Of a DNA stretch of 64,000 nucleotides, positions 13,061-23,457 are shown piece after piece. The stretch spans positions 124,001 to 188,000 of the forward strand of contig JALEGD010000001.1 of assembly GCA_022763425.1 (NCBI GenBank), in the 5' to 3' direction. This DNA is from Pelagibacteraceae bacterium. Lineage in GTDB: Bacteria > Pseudomonadota > Alphaproteobacteria > Pelagibacterales > Pelagibacteraceae. The notes below the pieces were generated by a model, which had not been told where the DNA came from, searched no databases, and saw only the letters and a list, made by a program, of their open reading frames with translations. The translations under genes were made by a program, and so were the position numbers. Position 1 is the stretch's first letter; every line of letters begins with the position of its first letter.

Positions 13061-13483
13061 ATGCAATTTACAATACTATTTTTAATAATTGTTCCATTGA
13101 TTGAAATATATTTCATGATTAAGATAGGTGCTGTTATTGGAGCTTTCAATACCATACTAGCAACTTTATTGACTGCAGCTGCCGGCCTATATTTTGTTAA
13201 ACTGCAAGGAATCTCAACATTATATTCAGCTGTAAACAGTATAAGAAATGATCAAACTCCATTTAAAGAAATACTAAGTGGTTTTTGTTTGATTATAGCT
13301 GCTATATTTTTAATTATCCCTGGTTTTTTTACTGACACCATTGGTGTTTTACTGCTCATACCTTTTACTAGAAATATAATTTTAAAGATATTTGTTAACG
13401 AAGAAAATTTAAATAAATCGAATAACCGTGGTGTAAACACGATAGAAATAGAAGCGGAGGAAATTAATGAACGAGACAAATAA
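13061..13483 (+). CDS. fxsA: FxsA-family cytoplasmic membrane protein
   Basis: This 140-residue membrane protein has about four hydrophobic segments and the FxsA signature: PLIEIYFMIKIGAVIGAFNTI at the start, LQGISTLYSAVNSI in the loop and PGFFTDTIGVLLLIP. FxsA in E. coli was named for suppressing F-exclusion of phage T7; the cellular role is not known. The charged C-terminal tail overlaps the secB start by 17 bases, as in other alphaproteobacteria. Confidence 0.92.
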   Translation: MQFTILFLIIVPLIEIYFMIKIGAVIGAFNTILATLLTAAAGLYFVKLQGISTLYSAVNSIRNDQTPFKEILSGFCLIIAAIFLIIPGFFTDTIGVLLLIPFTRNIILKIFVNEENLNKSNNRGVNTIEIEAEEINERDK

Positions 13484-13910
13484 TGATCAAAAAAAATACG
13501 AAGTAGTTGCTAAATATATTAAAGATATTTCGTTTGAAATTCCTTCACCTGATAGTTTCGTCGATGCTGCACAAAATCTTGGCTCATATGCCACTAAACT
13601 AGATTTAAATAGCAACCCTTACAAAAACAACTTAATCGAATTGAATTGCAAGTTTTTACTAGAAGCTCCTGAAAATATTCAAAACAAAATTCATGCGGAA
13701 GTATGTATATCAATTGTTTTCAAGCTAACTGATCCAAAAATGACAGCAGATGAAGTTAAAAAAACTATTTTAGTTTCAATACCAAGTGAACATTTTGAAT
13801 TTATGAAAGATGTCGTTACTTCACTGTTTCAAAAATCTGGTTTTAAAAATTTTAATTTTAATAAAACAATTGATTTTGAAGAATTATACAAACAACAATT
13901 TGCTAATTAA
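13467..13910 (+). CDS. secB: Protein-export chaperone SecB
   Basis: SecB keeps preproteins unfolded and delivers them to SecA. The 147 residues show the family pattern YIKDISFEIPSPDSF, then IHAEVCISIVFKL and a C-terminal helix region ending FEELYKQQFAN. The ILVSIPSEHFEF-type segment replaces the canonical ...P..LFPFAR motif, so this copy is divergent there. A GAGG ribosome-binding site precedes the ATG inside fxsA. It converges on dnaQ with an 8-base overlap. Confidence 0.9.
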   Translation: MNETNNDQKKYEVVAKYIKDISFEIPSPDSFVDAAQNLGSYATKLDLNSNPYKNNLIELNCKFLLEAPENIQNKIHAEVCISIVFKLTDPKMTADEVKKTILVSIPSEHFEFMKDVVTSLFQKSGFKNFNFNKTIDFEELYKQQFAN

Positions 13911-14574
13911 GCATAGACGATTTTGGTAATTCTTTTTGAAGAAATTCTTTGTGTAATTTTTTTTCCTCATCCGTAATTTGAACTATAATTTGTTTTCGAT
14001 CTTTAATACTTTTAACGTTTTTAATAGATTCATCTTGTGCGTTTAAATCAAACTCAAAAGTGGGTTCTTTCTTTTCAAATAGTTCTATGTAAACTTTAGC
14101 CAATAATTCACAATCTAAGAGGGCAGAGTGTTTTTGTCTTCTTGAATTATCTATTTTGAAACGCTTACACAGCGCATCAAGGCTATTTTGTGCCCCAGGA
14201 AACTTTTCTCTAGCTACGTTAAGAGTATCAACAATATTATCTTTTAAAATCTGTTTTTCACCAACTTCTTTGAGTTCTTTATTTAAAAATGCCAAGTCAA
14301 ACTCAGCATTATGAATCACTAACTTCTTGCCATCTATAAATTTTAAAAAATCTTTAGCTACATCATTAAATTTTGGCTTATCTTTTAAAAATTCTTTTGA
14401 AATACCATGAGTATCATAAGCGCCTTGGGATATTTCCATTTCTGGATTCAAAAAAACATGAAACTTTTCACCTGTAGGAATATGATCCTCAATTTCTATA
14501 CAAGCAATCTCTATAACTTTATCATTTACTGATGATAAACCTGTTGTTTCTGTATCTAATAAAATCTCTTTCAT
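13903..14574 (-). CDS. dnaQ: DNA polymerase III epsilon subunit (proofreading exonuclease)
   Basis: This is the 3'-5' proofreading exonuclease of the replicase. The 223 residues carry DEDDh motifs: Exo I LLDTETTGL (residues 5-13), Exo II VIHNAEFDLAF near 92-102, and Exo III RQKHSALLDCELLAKVY near 152-168. The C-terminal tail would contact the polymerase subunit. It overlaps coaE by 4 bases and belongs to the PPSR-maf-aroE-coaE-dnaQ operon that is conserved next to the alphaproteobacterial origin. Confidence 0.96.
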   Translation of the reverse strand: MKEILLDTETTGLSSVNDKVIEIACIEIEDHIPTGEKFHVFLNPEMEISQGAYDTHGISKEFLKDKPKFNDVAKDFLKFIDGKKLVIHNAEFDLAFLNKELKEVGEKQILKDNIVDTLNVAREKFPGAQNSLDALCKRFKIDNSRRQKHSALLDCELLAKVYIELFEKKEPTFEFDLNAQDESIKNVKSIKDRKQIIVQITDEEKKLHKEFLQKELPKSSMLN

Positions 14575-15143
14575 ATAATTACCTTATTTAATAAATTTTT
14601 AGCGTCTTTTTTAATCTTTGCACTATTAAAATTATTTTTAACCACAAAGTCTGCTTTTTCTTTTTTTAAATCCAAAGGTAGTTGTACTGATTTTAGTAAT
14701 TTATATATTTTTAAATTAAAATTTTTTCTTTTTTTTAATTTAATCATCATTTTATTTTTTGAAGGATCTATAAAGACTAAAATATCTGTATTTAAATTTA
14801 ATTTATTTTCTAAAAACAAAGGTATATCTAGAACAACAGCTTTTTTATTTTTATTTTTTTTTAAAAATTTATTCATTTCCTTTCGAACTAATGGATGCAC
14901 GATTTTTATAATTTTTTTTAAATTGGTTGGATTTTGATTTATAATTTTTACTAAATCATCTTTGCCGATTGGAAATTTAGAAATATGTTTTGGGAATGAT
15001 TTTTTGAGTTTAGTGTATAAATTTCTACTACTTTTGTATAAATCAGTAACAATATTATCAGCATTAAATAGGGGTATCTTCAATTGCTTGGCAAAAAAGG
15101 ACTTACCTGAACCAATATCACCCAAAACTGCAATTCTAATCAT
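14571..15143 (-). CDS. coaE: Dephospho-CoA kinase CoaE
   Basis: CoaE phosphorylates dephospho-CoA in the last step of coenzyme A synthesis. The 190-residue protein has an N-terminal P-loop (LGDIGSGKSFFAK), NADNIVTDLY, the HPLVRKEM motif and VLDIPLFLENKL, all characteristic of the family. The C-terminal half is lysine- and asparagine-rich and weakly conserved. It overlaps aroE by 8 bases and dnaQ by 4. Confidence 0.95.
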   Translation of the reverse strand: MIRIAVLGDIGSGKSFFAKQLKIPLFNADNIVTDLYKSSRNLYTKLKKSFPKHISKFPIGKDDLVKIINQNPTNLKKIIKIVHPLVRKEMNKFLKKNKNKKAVVLDIPLFLENKLNLNTDILVFIDPSKNKMMIKLKKRKNFNLKIYKLLKSVQLPLDLKKEKADFVVKNNFNSAKIKKDAKNLLNKVII

Positions 15144-15927
15144 TTAAAGTTTTTATAACCTCCTCAGTAATAACGGGCTCGACACCAGTCCATATTTTAA
15201 ATGATGCTTGTGCTTGGTACAAAAACATCATTTTTCCGTTAGCAATCCTGTTATTATTTTTTTCCGCTTCTTCCAAAAAATTTGTTTTTTCGGGATTATA
15301 AATCACATCATAAAATAATTTATTTTTAATACCTGTTAAATCCAAATTTAATCTATCGTTTTTGTTTAGTCCCACACTTGTCGCATTTATATAAACATCA
15401 GCATCTTTTATCTTTTCCCAGTCAATAATTTCTAAATTGTCATATAAATCAGATAGCTTTTTTAATCTTTCTTCTGATCTATTGGTTAAAGTAATTTTAC
15501 CAACACCCAAATTATTTAATGCTTCAATTATTGAGGGTGATACACCACCTGCCCCTATCAAAAAAACTGATTTATTTTTAAAATTAAATTTTAAATCCTC
15601 TAAGGATTTTTGAAAACCCATGACATCAGTATTGTGACCGATAATTTTACTTCCTGACTTACACAATGTGTTAACAGAATTAGTTTTAAGAGAAACTGCA
15701 GATAATTCGTCTACATACTCAATAATATCTTGTTTGAATGGCACAGTAACATTACAACCAAAAAGGTTATCATCTTTTAACTCTTTAATAATTTTTTGTA
15801 AGTCTTCTTTTTCTAATAATTTTTTTTCATAGATAAAATCTAACTTATTTTGTTTTATCCAAATATTGTGGATTTTTGGAGACAGTGAATGTTCGATTGG
15901 GTTTCCTATTACACAAAGTTTTTTCAT
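15136..15927 (-). CDS. aroE: Shikimate dehydrogenase AroE
   Basis: AroE reduces 3-dehydroshikimate to shikimate with NADPH. The 263 residues show HSLSPKIHNIW (substrate binding), GCNVTVPFKQDIIEY with the catalytic lysine, the dinucleotide loop GAGGVSPSI near residues 125-133, NATSVGLN and a C-terminal FLYQAQASFKIWTG segment. Length is normal for the family. The start overlaps maf by 4 bases. Confidence 0.97.
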   Translation of the reverse strand: MKKLCVIGNPIEHSLSPKIHNIWIKQNKLDFIYEKKLLEKEDLQKIIKELKDDNLFGCNVTVPFKQDIIEYVDELSAVSLKTNSVNTLCKSGSKIIGHNTDVMGFQKSLEDLKFNFKNKSVFLIGAGGVSPSIIEALNNLGVGKITLTNRSEERLKKLSDLYDNLEIIDWEKIKDADVYINATSVGLNKNDRLNLDLTGIKNKLFYDVIYNPEKTNFLEEAEKNNNRIANGKMMFLYQAQASFKIWTGVEPVITEEVIKTLND

Positions 15928-16511
15928 GATAATTTATCAAGATAAGGTTTAAGTTGTTTCATTGGCAATCCTTGAATTGAATCAATATCACCATCAATTT
16001 TTTCAAACAAATTTTTTCCTGGGCCTTCAATTTGATATACTCCATATTTTAACATAGTTTCTAATTCAATTTTTTCTAAATAATTTGATATTTCTTTATC
16101 AGATAATTTCTTCATTTTTAAAAGGCATGTATCGTGAAAGTGAGAAATCATGCTTCCTGCCCTGGATACACAGATTGCTGAATGAAGCATATGGGTTTGA
16201 TTATTTAGGTTATGTAAAATATTTTTGGCATCTTCTAAATTTTTTGGTTTATCAATGTTTTCTCCGTTTAAATCTAGAGTTTGATCTGCACCAATCACAA
16301 CGTCATTTAAAAACTTAGAACTTACTCTGTTTGCTTTAAGTTCAGCTAAGTTTTTTGCAATTTGTAATGGAGTGGCGCCATTATAAATTAGTGATAATTT
16401 AATTTCATCTTCATCCACACCAGATGAATATTGTTTCACATCGTAGTTATAGTTTTTTAAAATTGTAAATCTAATTCCACTATTAGAGGCTAAAATTAAC
16501 TTATTAATCAT
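15924..16511 (-). CDS. maf: Maf-family nucleoside triphosphate pyrophosphatase
   Basis: Maf proteins hydrolyse non-canonical or methylated nucleotides and have been linked to septum control. I start the gene at the ATG at 16509-16511, giving LILASNSGIRFTIL at the N-terminus, which is the family P-loop-like motif (usually SxSPRR). The longer open frame upstream lies inside PPSR and lacks family similarity. The remaining motifs, VIGADQTL and a C-terminal DGDIDSIQGLPMKQL, are conserved. The arginine pair of the first motif is replaced here by GIRF, a partial change. It overlaps PPSR by 8 bases. Confidence 0.93.
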   Translation of the reverse strand: MINKLILASNSGIRFTILKNYNYDVKQYSSGVDEDEIKLSLIYNGATPLQIAKNLAELKANRVSSKFLNDVVIGADQTLDLNGENIDKPKNLEDAKNILHNLNNQTHMLHSAICVSRAGSMISHFHDTCLLKMKKLSDKEISNYLEKIELETMLKYGVYQIEGPGKNLFEKIDGDIDSIQGLPMKQLKPYLDKLS

Positions 16512-17328
16512 TAATTTTTTGTTTTTCAATTTCAAAAATTTTAACAATTGAAGCGGCACTTTCTTCTACAGATTTTCTTGTTACATCAATCATTGGTATT
16601 TTTCTTGAATTAAACAATTTTTTTGCTTCATCTATTTCTTTTTCAATATTGCTTATATCAGCATAAGTTGAGGATTTTTTGTCGTTTAAAATTGTAATTC
16701 TTGTTTTTCTTACATCTGAAAGTCTTTTTGGATCAATTGTTAAACCAACCTTTACAGCTTTTGATTTATAAATATCTTCAGGTAAAATTTGATGAAGAAC
16801 AAGGGGTATATTAGAAACTTTATAACCTCTTTCACCTAAATAAATAGATGTTGGTGTTTTACTAGTTCTGCTCACTCCAAAAATTATAATATCTGCGTCT
16901 ACAGCTGTATCTAGCTTTTGTCCATCATCATGCTGCAATGTAAATTGCATTGCTTCTATTTTTTTATAATACTCTTTATTTAATTGATGTTGCCCACTTG
17001 GTTTAAGAGTAGCTTTCTGATCAAAAATTTTTTCAAATTGTGGGATCAAATAATCTAATAAACCAAAGCAGGGAATGTTAAATGTTTTGCATTCGTTAAT
17101 GATATGATTCGTGGTTTGTTTTTCTACAAGCGTATAAAGGATAATGGGGTTTTCTACTTTTTTACATGCCTCAATTAATGTTGCCGTTTGAGTAGTTGTT
17201 CTCATGAAAGCAAAATGATGAATTTTATAGTTATTGTCTGGAAACTGAGCTTTTAATGCTAAATAAATTCTATCAAGAGTTTCTCCTGTAGAGTCTGAAA
17301 CTAAGAAAAAGTTGAAAGTTTTGTTCAT
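16504..17328 (-). CDS. Pyruvate, phosphate dikinase regulatory protein (PPSR/DUF299)
   Basis: This bifunctional kinase/pyrophosphorylase reversibly phosphorylates pyruvate phosphate dikinase or PEP synthetase. The 274 residues start with NFFLVSDSTGETLDR and contain the P-loop-like GVSRTSKTPTSIYLGERGYKVSNIPLV near residues 147-173, both diagnostic of DUF299. It is the orthologue of the gene that borders the replication origin in Caulobacter and Rickettsia (family 'RP001'). It is the first gene of the minus-strand operon running through maf, aroE, coaE and dnaQ, and it diverges from rho across a 353-base AT-rich gap. Confidence 0.95.
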   Translation of the reverse strand: MNKTFNFFLVSDSTGETLDRIYLALKAQFPDNNYKIHHFAFMRTTTQTATLIEACKKVENPIILYTLVEKQTTNHIINECKTFNIPCFGLLDYLIPQFEKIFDQKATLKPSGQHQLNKEYYKKIEAMQFTLQHDDGQKLDTAVDADIIIFGVSRTSKTPTSIYLGERGYKVSNIPLVLHQILPEDIYKSKAVKVGLTIDPKRLSDVRKTRITILNDKKSSTYADISNIEKEIDEAKKLFNSRKIPMIDVTRKSVEESAASIVKIFEIEKQKIND

Positions 17329-17681
17329 AAATATGTTTATAAAGATTTTATAACAACTTTATATCAATAGAGTTAAAAAAATTTAAATTTTATCTATAAA
17401 CGTTACAATTTTAATAATAAATTATTAGACTTAAATTTTTATATCCGATTATCTTGAATTAAGTGAGTAAGTATAAAATTCCTTTAATTTTAATATCTAT
17501 ACTGTTTATAAATATGTATATCTAGTTATTAAATAATTAACCCCATTATAAACATGACCTAATAACAAAACTAACTTATATAAATATAATTATTATATTA
17601 TTACTTAACCATTTATCAGATATTGCAAATTATCAGAAAATTAGTTATAAAAGTGTTTCACCACAATAAAACTTTTCCATT
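17329..17681. other. AT-rich divergent intergenic region; candidate chromosomal replication origin
   Basis: No gene fits in these 353 bases, which contain few G or C. The sequence TGTTTATAA occurs at 17334-17342 and 17503-17511, and inverted (TTATAAACA) at 17546-17554. Read as TTATAAACA it is two substitutions from the DnaA box TTATCCACA. Other near matches are TTATCTATA at 17390-17398 and TTATCAGA at both 17613-17620 and 17630-17637. The decamer ATAAATATGT is repeated at 17327-17336 and 17508-17517. The gap separates PPSR from rho, near the block that flanks the origin in other alphaproteobacteria. It must also hold the promoters of both operons. No exact DnaA consensus box is present. Confidence 0.45.
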
Positions 17682-18950
17682 ATGAATTTACAAGAACTAA
17701 AAGATAAATCACCTGCCGATCTAATTTCAGAAGCTGAAAAGCTTGGTATTGAAAATCCAAGCACACTTAGAAAACAAGAAATATTATTTGCAATATTAAA
17801 AAAACTTGCTGAAAAAGGTGAGCAAATAACTGCCACAGGTGTATTAGAAACTTTACAAGATGGGTTTGGTTTTTTAAGAGCCATGGAGTCAAATTATCTA
17901 CCGGGGCCTGATGATATTTATGTAAGTCCGAGCCAAATAAGAAGATTTGGTCTTAGAAAGGGAGATACTGTTGAAGGAGAAATTAGAGCCCCAAAAGATC
18001 AAGAAAGATATTTTGCATTATTAAAAGTTAATAAAATCAACTTTGAAGATCCTGAAAAAACCAAACATAAAATCAACTTTGATAACTTGACACCATTATA
18101 TCCAGATGAAAAAATTAAGTTAGAAATTGAAAAAACAAAGATAGAAAAAAAGACAGACGTAACTGCAAGAGTTATTGATTTAGTTTCACCAATTGGAAAA
18201 GGACAAAGATCTTTAATTGTTGCTCCTCCAAGAACAGGAAAAACCGTCATTTTACAAAATATTGCAAATTCAATAACTGCAAACCACCCAGAGATTTATT
18301 TAATAGTATTGCTAATTGACGAAAGACCAGAAGAAGTTACAGATATGCAAAGAACAGTTAATGGTGAAGTTGTAAGTTCTACATTTGATGAGCCAGCTCA
18401 ACGACACGTTCAAGTTGCTGAAATGGTAATAGAAAAAGCAAAAAGACTTTGTGAACACAAAAAGGATGTTGTTATATTACTAGATTCAATAACAAGACTG
18501 GGTAGAGCATATAACGCTGTTGTTCCAAGTTCAGGTAAAGTTTTAACTGGTGGTGTTGATGCAAATGCACTTCAAAGACCCAAGAGATTTTTTGGTGCTG
18601 CTAGAAACATTGAAGAAGGTGGTTCTTTAACTATAATCTCAACTGCTCTGATTGAAACAGGCTCAAGAATGGATGAAGTAATTTTTGAAGAATTCAAGGG
18701 AACAGGTAACTCAGAAGTGGTTCTTGATAGAAAAGTTGCAGATAAAAGAACCTACCCAGCAATTGATGTTGCCAAATCTGGAACGAGAAAAGAAGAATTA
18801 TTGTTTGAAAAAGATGAGCTATCTAAGATGAACGTACTAAGAAGAATTATTAACCCTATGGGATCTATGGATGCTATAGAATTTTTAATAGGTAAATTAA
18901 GAGAGACAAAAAATAATGGAGAATTTTTTGACTCTATGAACAAAGGTTAA
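17682..18950 (+). CDS. rho: Transcription termination factor Rho
   Basis: Rho is the hexameric RNA helicase that terminates transcription. The 422 residues include the N-terminal SAP-like [22 protein letters not shown] and the RNA-binding cold-shock-like domain with [30 protein letters not shown]. The motor domain follows, with Walker A APPRTGKT near residues 181-188, [14 protein letters not shown] (Walker B) and the Q/R loops. It begins with ATG after the candidate origin gap. Its stop codon overlaps the convergent Trm112-like gene. In most alphaproteobacteria rho is near hemE or mnmE; here mnmE lies 17 kb away on the other side of the gap. Confidence 0.98.
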
Positions 18951-21816: not shown

Positions 21817-23457
21817 TTAATTTGTTTTTTCCAAAGCCCAGTTAATGTTATTCACCTTATCTTTCAAAGTACCCTCAACAAGAATACATTTTGACTCTAA
21901 AATTTTGTCATAAGAAGCGAAATAAAGACTATCTTCGATTTTTACCGAATGAGATGATTTAAATCTCCAGCCCTGATTATCCACACTTAATAATATATCT
22001 CCACCTTGAGTTTGTATAAGTTTGCCCTCAGGTGTGACGTGAAATCGAAGAGAAAAATTTAGGAAAGCCAAATCTTTTTTTGCAACAATTACAAGTTCTT
22101 CTCCAGTCAACTTATTTTCATTTTCATGAATAACTATTTTTCTTTCATACATCGTATTATACTTTTTTTGATAACCATTATGGCCAGAAATAATTGAAAT
22201 AGTATCTTTGTCAGTGTTTAGGTCTTTTTTATAAACTTTTAATTTTTGTATAAGAGAATTTCCATAAAATGTTCTAACCAATTGGTTTTTTTGAAATAAG
22301 CAGGAAGAAGTGTCATTTATTGTTAATGCAGAATGTGCCGCAGTAGTTTGACTTAGATATGGCAAATCACCACTAAAATTGTGAGCTGACCCACAATTTG
22401 AAATTATTTTTTTTCCATTATAAAGAAATTCAAAAGATAAACATCCTGCTTGGTAATTTTGTGAATTTAAATCAGACGGTGGATCATTGGCATCGACAGC
22501 TATTTCAAACTTTTTAATTTTTGAAATTAAGTAAGAATGAGTTTTTGTTTTTTTATCGAATTTATAGTTTTTGGCTTTTAAAAATTTATTAAATTCAGTG
22601 GCATCTCTATTTTTAGCCCCATTAAATAGTGGGAGAAAATTATTTGATAGTAATAATCCCTTATAATTATCACCAATTTTTTGAATATTTTGGTCTAAAA
22701 ATTCAGGTACAGTATTTTGTGAGAAGATTAAAAATTCTCTAACTAAAATTAAATGGTGCAATAACCAAAATTGATCCTCTGGGTTTTTACTTTCAACAAA
22801 TCCATTTCTATCAATAATGTTTTTTATTTCACTTGAGAGATTTTTAATTGTACTTTGAAATAATTTTTGGTTCCCTTCAAAGGTAACACTAACTAAAATT
22901 AAAGAAGCAAGGACGAGTATTTTTTCTAATCTGTTATGTATAAATGTAAGGTTTCGATTTAAGTGAAGAGCTTGTTTTATAATATTGTTTGTTATGGTCG
23001 CTCTAAAAACCATATCATCGTTTCTTATTGTAAAATGAGAACAACATATCCAAAAAATTAATCGATTGGCTGTGATAAGATGGTTCCAATTTTTTTCATT
23101 ATAATTTTGATTTTTTCTTAACCATTCAACCATGATGTTTTTAGCGAGTATTTTATGATTTTTTATATCGAGTTGAGATAACCAAGAAAATTTATGAAGT
23201 TCTGATAAATGTTTTTCACCAATATTATCAAGTTTCCAAATATTTTTTTGAAATCGATTAATTAATTCGCTTCTTTTATTGTTTTTATCCTCGAGCTCTA
23301 AAAGTAAAGGAACATTATTCATATCATAACTTCTAGACGGGGGAGTAACTTTTAAACTATTGTTATAATATTGAGTTGTAAAATATATTTTTCTAACTTT
23401 TTCTAAAAAAAGATTAAATAATGAATAAATAAATAACCTTATGAATCTAAGATTCAT
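21817..23457 (-). CDS. Heparinase II/III-like protein
   Basis: This protein of 546 residues has an all-alpha N-terminal region (WKLDNIGEKHLSELHKFSWLSQL, repeated helices to about residue 290). A C-terminal beta-rich domain follows, with EIAVDANDPPSDLNSQNYQAGCLSFEFLYNGKKIISNCGS and SQTTAAHSALTINDTSS, the heparinase II/III signature. In animal-associated or soil bacteria such proteins are polysaccharide lyases. No signal peptide is evident here, and neighbouring rpe and purH give no sugar-degradation context. The pairing with purH is widespread in alphaproteobacteria, and the substrate is unknown. Its ATG follows the rpe stop with no gap. Confidence 0.87.
   Translation of the reverse strand: MNLRFIRLFIYSLFNLFLEKVRKIYFTTQYYNNSLKVTPPSRSYDMNNVPLLLELEDKNNKRSELINRFQKNIWKLDNIGEKHLSELHKFSWLSQLDIKNHKILAKNIMVEWLRKNQNYNEKNWNHLITANRLIFWICCSHFTIRNDDMVFRATITNNIIKQALHLNRNLTFIHNRLEKILVLASLILVSVTFEGNQKLFQSTIKNLSSEIKNIIDRNGFVESKNPEDQFWLLHHLILVREFLIFSQNTVPEFLDQNIQKIGDNYKGLLLSNNFLPLFNGAKNRDATEFNKFLKAKNYKFDKKTKTHSYLISKIKKFEIAVDANDPPSDLNSQNYQAGCLSFEFLYNGKKIISNCGSAHNFSGDLPYLSQTTAAHSALTINDTSSCLFQKNQLVRTFYGNSLIQKLKVYKKDLNTDKDTISIISGHNGYQKKYNTMYERKIVIHENENKLTGEELVIVAKKDLAFLNFSLRFHVTPEGKLIQTQGGDILLSVDNQGWRFKSSHSVKIEDSLYFASYDKILESKCILVEGTLKDKVNNINWALEKTN

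Follow-up and report, generated by a model that had tools for sequence, protein, structure and literature searches.

A predicted chromosomal replication origin between PPSR and rho in a SAR11 genome

The PPSR-rho gap and its sequence elements

The DNA analysed here (the window) is a stretch of 64,000 nucleotides, bases 124,001-188,000 of a Pelagibacterales (SAR11) genome that is complete in a single contig of 1,211,322 bp. At 141,329-141,681 in genome numbering, the divergent genes PPSR and rho are separated by the very AT-rich, 353-base gap to which an earlier note on this sequence had drawn attention, and whose A+T content of 83% compares with about 70% for the genome (Table 1). Gap length by itself is unremarkable, since a crude ORF caller finds about 15 divergent gaps of at least 300 bp in the 842 kb of genome read, a sample of approximately that size made up of the window and separate 14-20-kb stretches and including all of 108-302 kb. 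The gap has no match in Rfam, where a single sub-threshold chance hit falls inside PPSR. A search of a phage collection gave no match, and a promoter and terminator scan gave no signal above shuffles.

Table 1. Features of the PPSR-rho locus, in window coordinates
Feature	Position	Strand	Remarks
secB (+), dnaQ, coaE, aroE, maf (-)	13467..16508		left flank of the locus, conserved
PPSR (COG1806/DUF299)	16504..17328	-	also flanks the Caulobacter origin (PMC1914354)
DnaA-box-like TTATGAACA	17322..17330	-	overlaps the PPSR start codon; under coding constraint, weak evidence
Candidate oriC	17329..17681		353 bp, 83% A+T, between divergent PPSR and rho
DnaA-box-like TTATAAACA	17334..17342	-	TTATCCACA or TTATTAACA at the same position in relatives
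DnaA-box-like TTATAAACA	17503..17511	-	kept in 6/7 genus genomes
TTAACCCC element beside box	17537..17544	+	kept in 6/7 genus genomes; TTAGCACC in the seventh
DnaA-box-like TTATAAACA	17546..17554	+	rho-side box; intact in 2/7 genus genomes
DnaA-trio-like CTA ATA ACA AAA CTA ACT	17559..17576	+	4 nt past the box; lower strand 3'-GAT-TAT-...-5'
28-bp pure A/T run	17576..17603		probable DNA unwinding element by its place beside box and triplets
rho	17682..18950	+	right-hand flank, in the window's genus only

Three repeat families had been pointed out in the gap, and the copies of all three are present. TGTTTATAA occurs twice and once inverted (as TTATAAACA), TTATCAGA lies at 17613-17620 and 17630-17637, and ATAAATATGT at 17508-17517 and at 17327-17336, this last copy overlapping the PPSR start codon. 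Neither TTATCAGA nor ATAAATATGT is conserved across the genus and, by sequence conservation, these two of the three families are noise. TTATAAACA is found three times in the gap as compared with 0.04 +- 0.20 in dinucleotide shuffles, 0 of 500 of which reach three copies. These three sites are DnaA-box-like, with one mismatch each, and are joined by the one across the PPSR start, no perfect TTATNCACA being present in the gap (25 sites in the genome). The boxes at 17503 and 17546 form a divergent pair 43 bp apart, a distance that is 44 bp in the relative G023. Within the 842 kb read, four box-like sites within 225 bp are found only at the gap, a count that includes the coding-constrained site overlapping the PPSR start codon, and the gap is likewise the sole cluster of this kind in the 430 kb read of G023. 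Scanning for perfect TTATNCACA as an origin marker was abandoned, as a reversed control pattern was equally frequent and no perfect site falls in the gap. Elsewhere in the window, a lone perfect DnaA box TTATCCACA with NTA triplets 4 nt on (21977-21995) lies inside a coding gene and is probably a chance occurrence.

The rho-side box opens a composite block, TTATAAACA-TGAC-CTA-ATA-ACA-AAA-CTA-ACT, followed by the 28-bp A/T run, so that an AT-rich candidate unwinding element stands, as a sequence feature, beside DnaA-type sites. The triplets are recognisable in this genome and degenerate, and they are strong in relatives. At the regulatory level, the gap contains neither the CtrA site TTAA-N7-TTAA nor GANTC. 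Four OmpR-type (Trans_reg_C) regulators were found, but with a best CtrA-model score of 137 bits against a cutoff of 350 none passes as CtrA, and the protein itself appears to be absent from the genome. It has been reported that CtrA sites in Rickettsiales origins are variable in number, down to zero (PMC1914354). Two IHF-like matches (17614-17643) coincide with the TTATCAGA repeats and are not conserved. A TATTG element (mostly TATTGCAA) is located near 17620-17632, in the rho-side part of the gap, in 7 of 7 genus genomes, and is perhaps a promoter or leader element of rho.

Conservation of the locus and loss of hemE

The identity of the locus becomes apparent when relatives are examined. In 30 genomes from other genera of the same family, PPSR and hemE diverge from a gap of 258-286 bp. 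It has been established experimentally for Caulobacter, and predicted for Rickettsia, that hemE and COG1806 (PPSR) flank the origin (PMC1914354). In these other genera rho comes fourth in a hemE-hemH-hemJ-rho series, of which the first three genes have been lost only in the window's genus, where the seven PPSR-carrying genomes (the present one included) show a PPSR-rho gap of 346-353 bp without hemE-hemH-hemJ. The proposal of the earlier note that the origin junction is kept here with rho replacing hemE is supported by the 30 relatives with a PPSR/hemE gap. The hemE gene of this genome is found near 718 kb, in a hemB-hemE-hemH cluster at 716582-720553. It is unlike the native SAR11 copy: the closest hemE found is that of strain HIMB114, a member of the window's genus, and the closest outside the genus belong to Bdellovibrionota, with 35-53% identity over matched stretches. 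This resemblance suggests that hemE-hemH-hemJ at the origin may have been replaced by a horizontally transferred cluster, which would have freed the three genes for loss and would account for rho being the neighbour today.

Rearrangement has also affected the surroundings of the gap. In G023 the order is hemE-hemH-hemJ-rho, one other ORF and mnmE-mnmG-rsmG-parA-parB. Compared with this arrangement, the window's genome (108-142 kb) has the block ending in rho in inverted orientation relative to mnmG-rsmG-parA-parB, which puts parAB on the opposite side of the origin. The sole perfect parS copy in the 842 kb read, TGTTTCACGTGAAACA, is located at genome position 121789, in the start region of rsmG next to parA-parB and 20 kb from the gap. 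At greater evolutionary distance, none of 25 genomes of another family of the same order (G060-G084) has a PPSR (PF03618) match, so the origin neighbourhood must differ there.

The gaps of the 30 other-genus relatives, whose genomes are related and hence not independent samples, contain 74 TTATN(A/C)ACA sites against 5.1 expected, an enrichment of about 15-fold, and 11 of these sites are perfect TTATNCACA (0.9 expected). Box-like sites hold similar positions across genera. The one at the PPSR end is TTATAAACA in the window's genus and elsewhere either TTATCCACA or TTATTAACA, depending on the genus, which supports the earlier suggestion that the boxes may have drifted to TTATAAACA, the starting form being TTATCCACA. 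The DnaA protein scores above the threshold of the equivalog model for DnaA and carries RRSR...GRDHTTV in its C-terminal segment, which we take to be the canonical box-reading segment. As this segment looks canonical, altered recognition is not required, and the boxes may be weaker rather than newly recognised by DnaA, weaker binding being the simpler reading.

On the hemE side of the same 30 gaps, a box-like sequence with ACA at its end (TTATNMACA with 0-3 mismatches) precedes a 4-nt spacer and then triplets in phase. Among the first five triplets, NTA is found in frame in 101 of 150 cases, as compared with 10 and 6 in the neighbouring frames and with a maximum of 41 in shuffles. Read on the other strand as 3'-NAT-5', these triplets are a sequence match for the DnaA-trio unwinding element, whose consensus is 3'-GAT-5' with an important central adenine (PMC8287927, PMC10721633).

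Strand skew and competing locations

In this genome, gene orientation and raw skew both switch sign at around 160 kb and again at around 770 kb. Over roughly the first 40 kb of the window, the cumulative raw skew is lowest at about 34-36 kb in window numbering. Raw GC skew of 20-kb samples was set aside because it is confounded by gene orientation, and the codon-3 GC skew of leading- and lagging-strand genes was compared instead in 5-kb steps, a fit that removes the orientation effect. The optimum for the origin was obtained at 145 kb, the gap being at 141.5 kb, with a terminus near 780 kb. All positions within 3 log-likelihood units of this optimum lie at 125-145 kb, in a block bootstrap the origin falls at a median of -1.5 kb relative to the gap, with a 90% interval from -21 to +28 kb, and the log-likelihood gain is 40 against a maximum of 13.7 in 60 gene permutations. 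The GC-skew check recommended in the earlier note thus places the origin on the gap once orientation is controlled. In G023, with its gap at 335.6 kb, the estimates are 325 kb from GC3 skew and 335 kb from TA3 skew; TA3 skew in the window's genome yields no sensible origin. Orientation bias alone is less exact, with estimates of 165-170 kb here (24-29 kb off the gap) and about 295-310 kb in G023. The dif site was dropped as a terminus marker, as Pelagibacter is reported to lack the dif/Xer system (PMC2731167).

The orientation estimate is one of the observations that would fit an origin elsewhere in 120-170 kb, for instance at 165-170 kb or near parAB, which together with parS lies at 119-122 kb, the gap then serving only as a bidirectional PPSR/rho promoter. 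Divergent genes do need promoters, and promoter-like hexamers are present in the gap, though in no greater number than in shuffles. We consider this improbable, given that boxes and triplets have been kept despite the change of flank from hemE to rho, that codon-3 skew favours the gap and that no second four-box cluster exists in the 842 kb read, with 108-302 kb fully covered. The competing cluster that the earlier note had envisaged near a gene such as hemE or parB was likewise not encountered in these 842 kb.

An origin beside dnaA, as in many bacteria, would agree with the rpsT-dnaA-dnaN-recF-gyrB order at 64-70 kb, with the AT-rich gap upstream of dnaA and with the use of dnaA as the starting point of published SAR11 alignments (PMC12421898), but it is very unlikely: that region has no box cluster, and its likelihood relative to the PPSR-rho gap is 14 units worse by GC3 skew and 20 units worse by orientation. 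The location of dnaA 72 kb from the gap, with a dnaA-PPSR distance of 61-72 kb in 10 of 10 complete relatives, also counts against it, and neither dnaA (69 kb) nor hemE (718 kb) is a better candidate than the gap. Finally, a sequence with 83% A+T easily yields TTAT-like words, and the motif matches could in principle be a composition effect in a random AT-rich spacer. This explanation is rejected by the comparison with dinucleotide shuffles, by the test of triplet phase and by the box scan across the sampled genome; it is refuted for the family as a whole and has hardly any probability left for the present gap.

Predicted mode of initiation and known counterparts

Locus, skew, boxes and triplets lead to a strong prediction, namely that the chromosomal origin (oriC) of this SAR11 genome very probably corresponds to the 353-bp PPSR/rho gap. 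Both the element and its location are of a familiar type, with one landmark gene lost and the boxes shifted towards A/T. We infer that DnaA would bind the few divergently oriented, AT-shifted boxes (TTATAAACA), and that a DnaA-ATP filament would grow from the rho-side box at 17546 onto the lower-strand triplets (3'-GAT/TAT-5') and melt the A/T run, where helicase loading would lead to two-way replication. Loss of hemE-hemH-hemJ in the window's genus would have left this origin between PPSR and rho. A broader and more tentative possibility, which we rate somewhat below an even chance, is that SAR11, as slow-growing ocean bacteria, operate their origin almost wholly with weak AT-shifted boxes (TTATNAACA) and a degenerate trio, free of CtrA control. 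In such a pared-down initiation circuit, a heme cluster acquired horizontally would have let the origin neighbour go while the origin stayed unmoved.

SAR11 bacteria rank among Earth's most abundant organisms, and their in-situ growth is estimated from coverage relative to an origin or terminus placed by coverage or GC skew; this work reports one peak in coverage or an origin defined by skew, and no name for the locus was found there (PMC9589681, PMC9516812). No description of a SAR11 origin at the present locus was found in the literature searched, though the DoriC database may contain one. Alignments that begin at dnaA start about 60-70 kb from the gap (PMC12421898). An origin resolved to the base, its boxes and trio-like array defined, would give growth estimates a fixed reference point and make SAR11 initiation testable. 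It is also important to remark that adjacency to hemE, a standard criterion for alphaproteobacterial origins, can vanish while the origin stays.

The proposed arrangement resembles the basal unwinding system of Bacillus subtilis, in which phased 3'-NAT-5' triplets come after a box and adjoin an AT-rich stretch (PMC8287927, PMC10721633). In the SAR11 gaps the triplets frequently open with a base other than G, and the spacer and proximal box differ. With Cori of Caulobacter crescentus the gap shares the COG1806 (PPSR) left flank, the hemE right flank in sister genera and an AT-rich gap with several DnaA-type sites. Unlike Cori, the SAR11 locus has lost the adjacent hemE-hemH-hemJ, its boxes are mostly TTATNAACA, TTAA-N7-TTAA is missing from the gap and 0 of 4 OmpR-type regulators score as CtrA. 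The origins of Rickettsia and Wolbachia are also found in AT-rich reduced genomes at the same locus or half of it, but they were predicted with TTATNCACA boxes and often with CtrA sites (PMC1914354). In Wolbachia one landmark gene has been lost as well, and there the case is the reverse of SAR11, as hemE was kept and COG1806 was lost beside the origin (PMC1914354).
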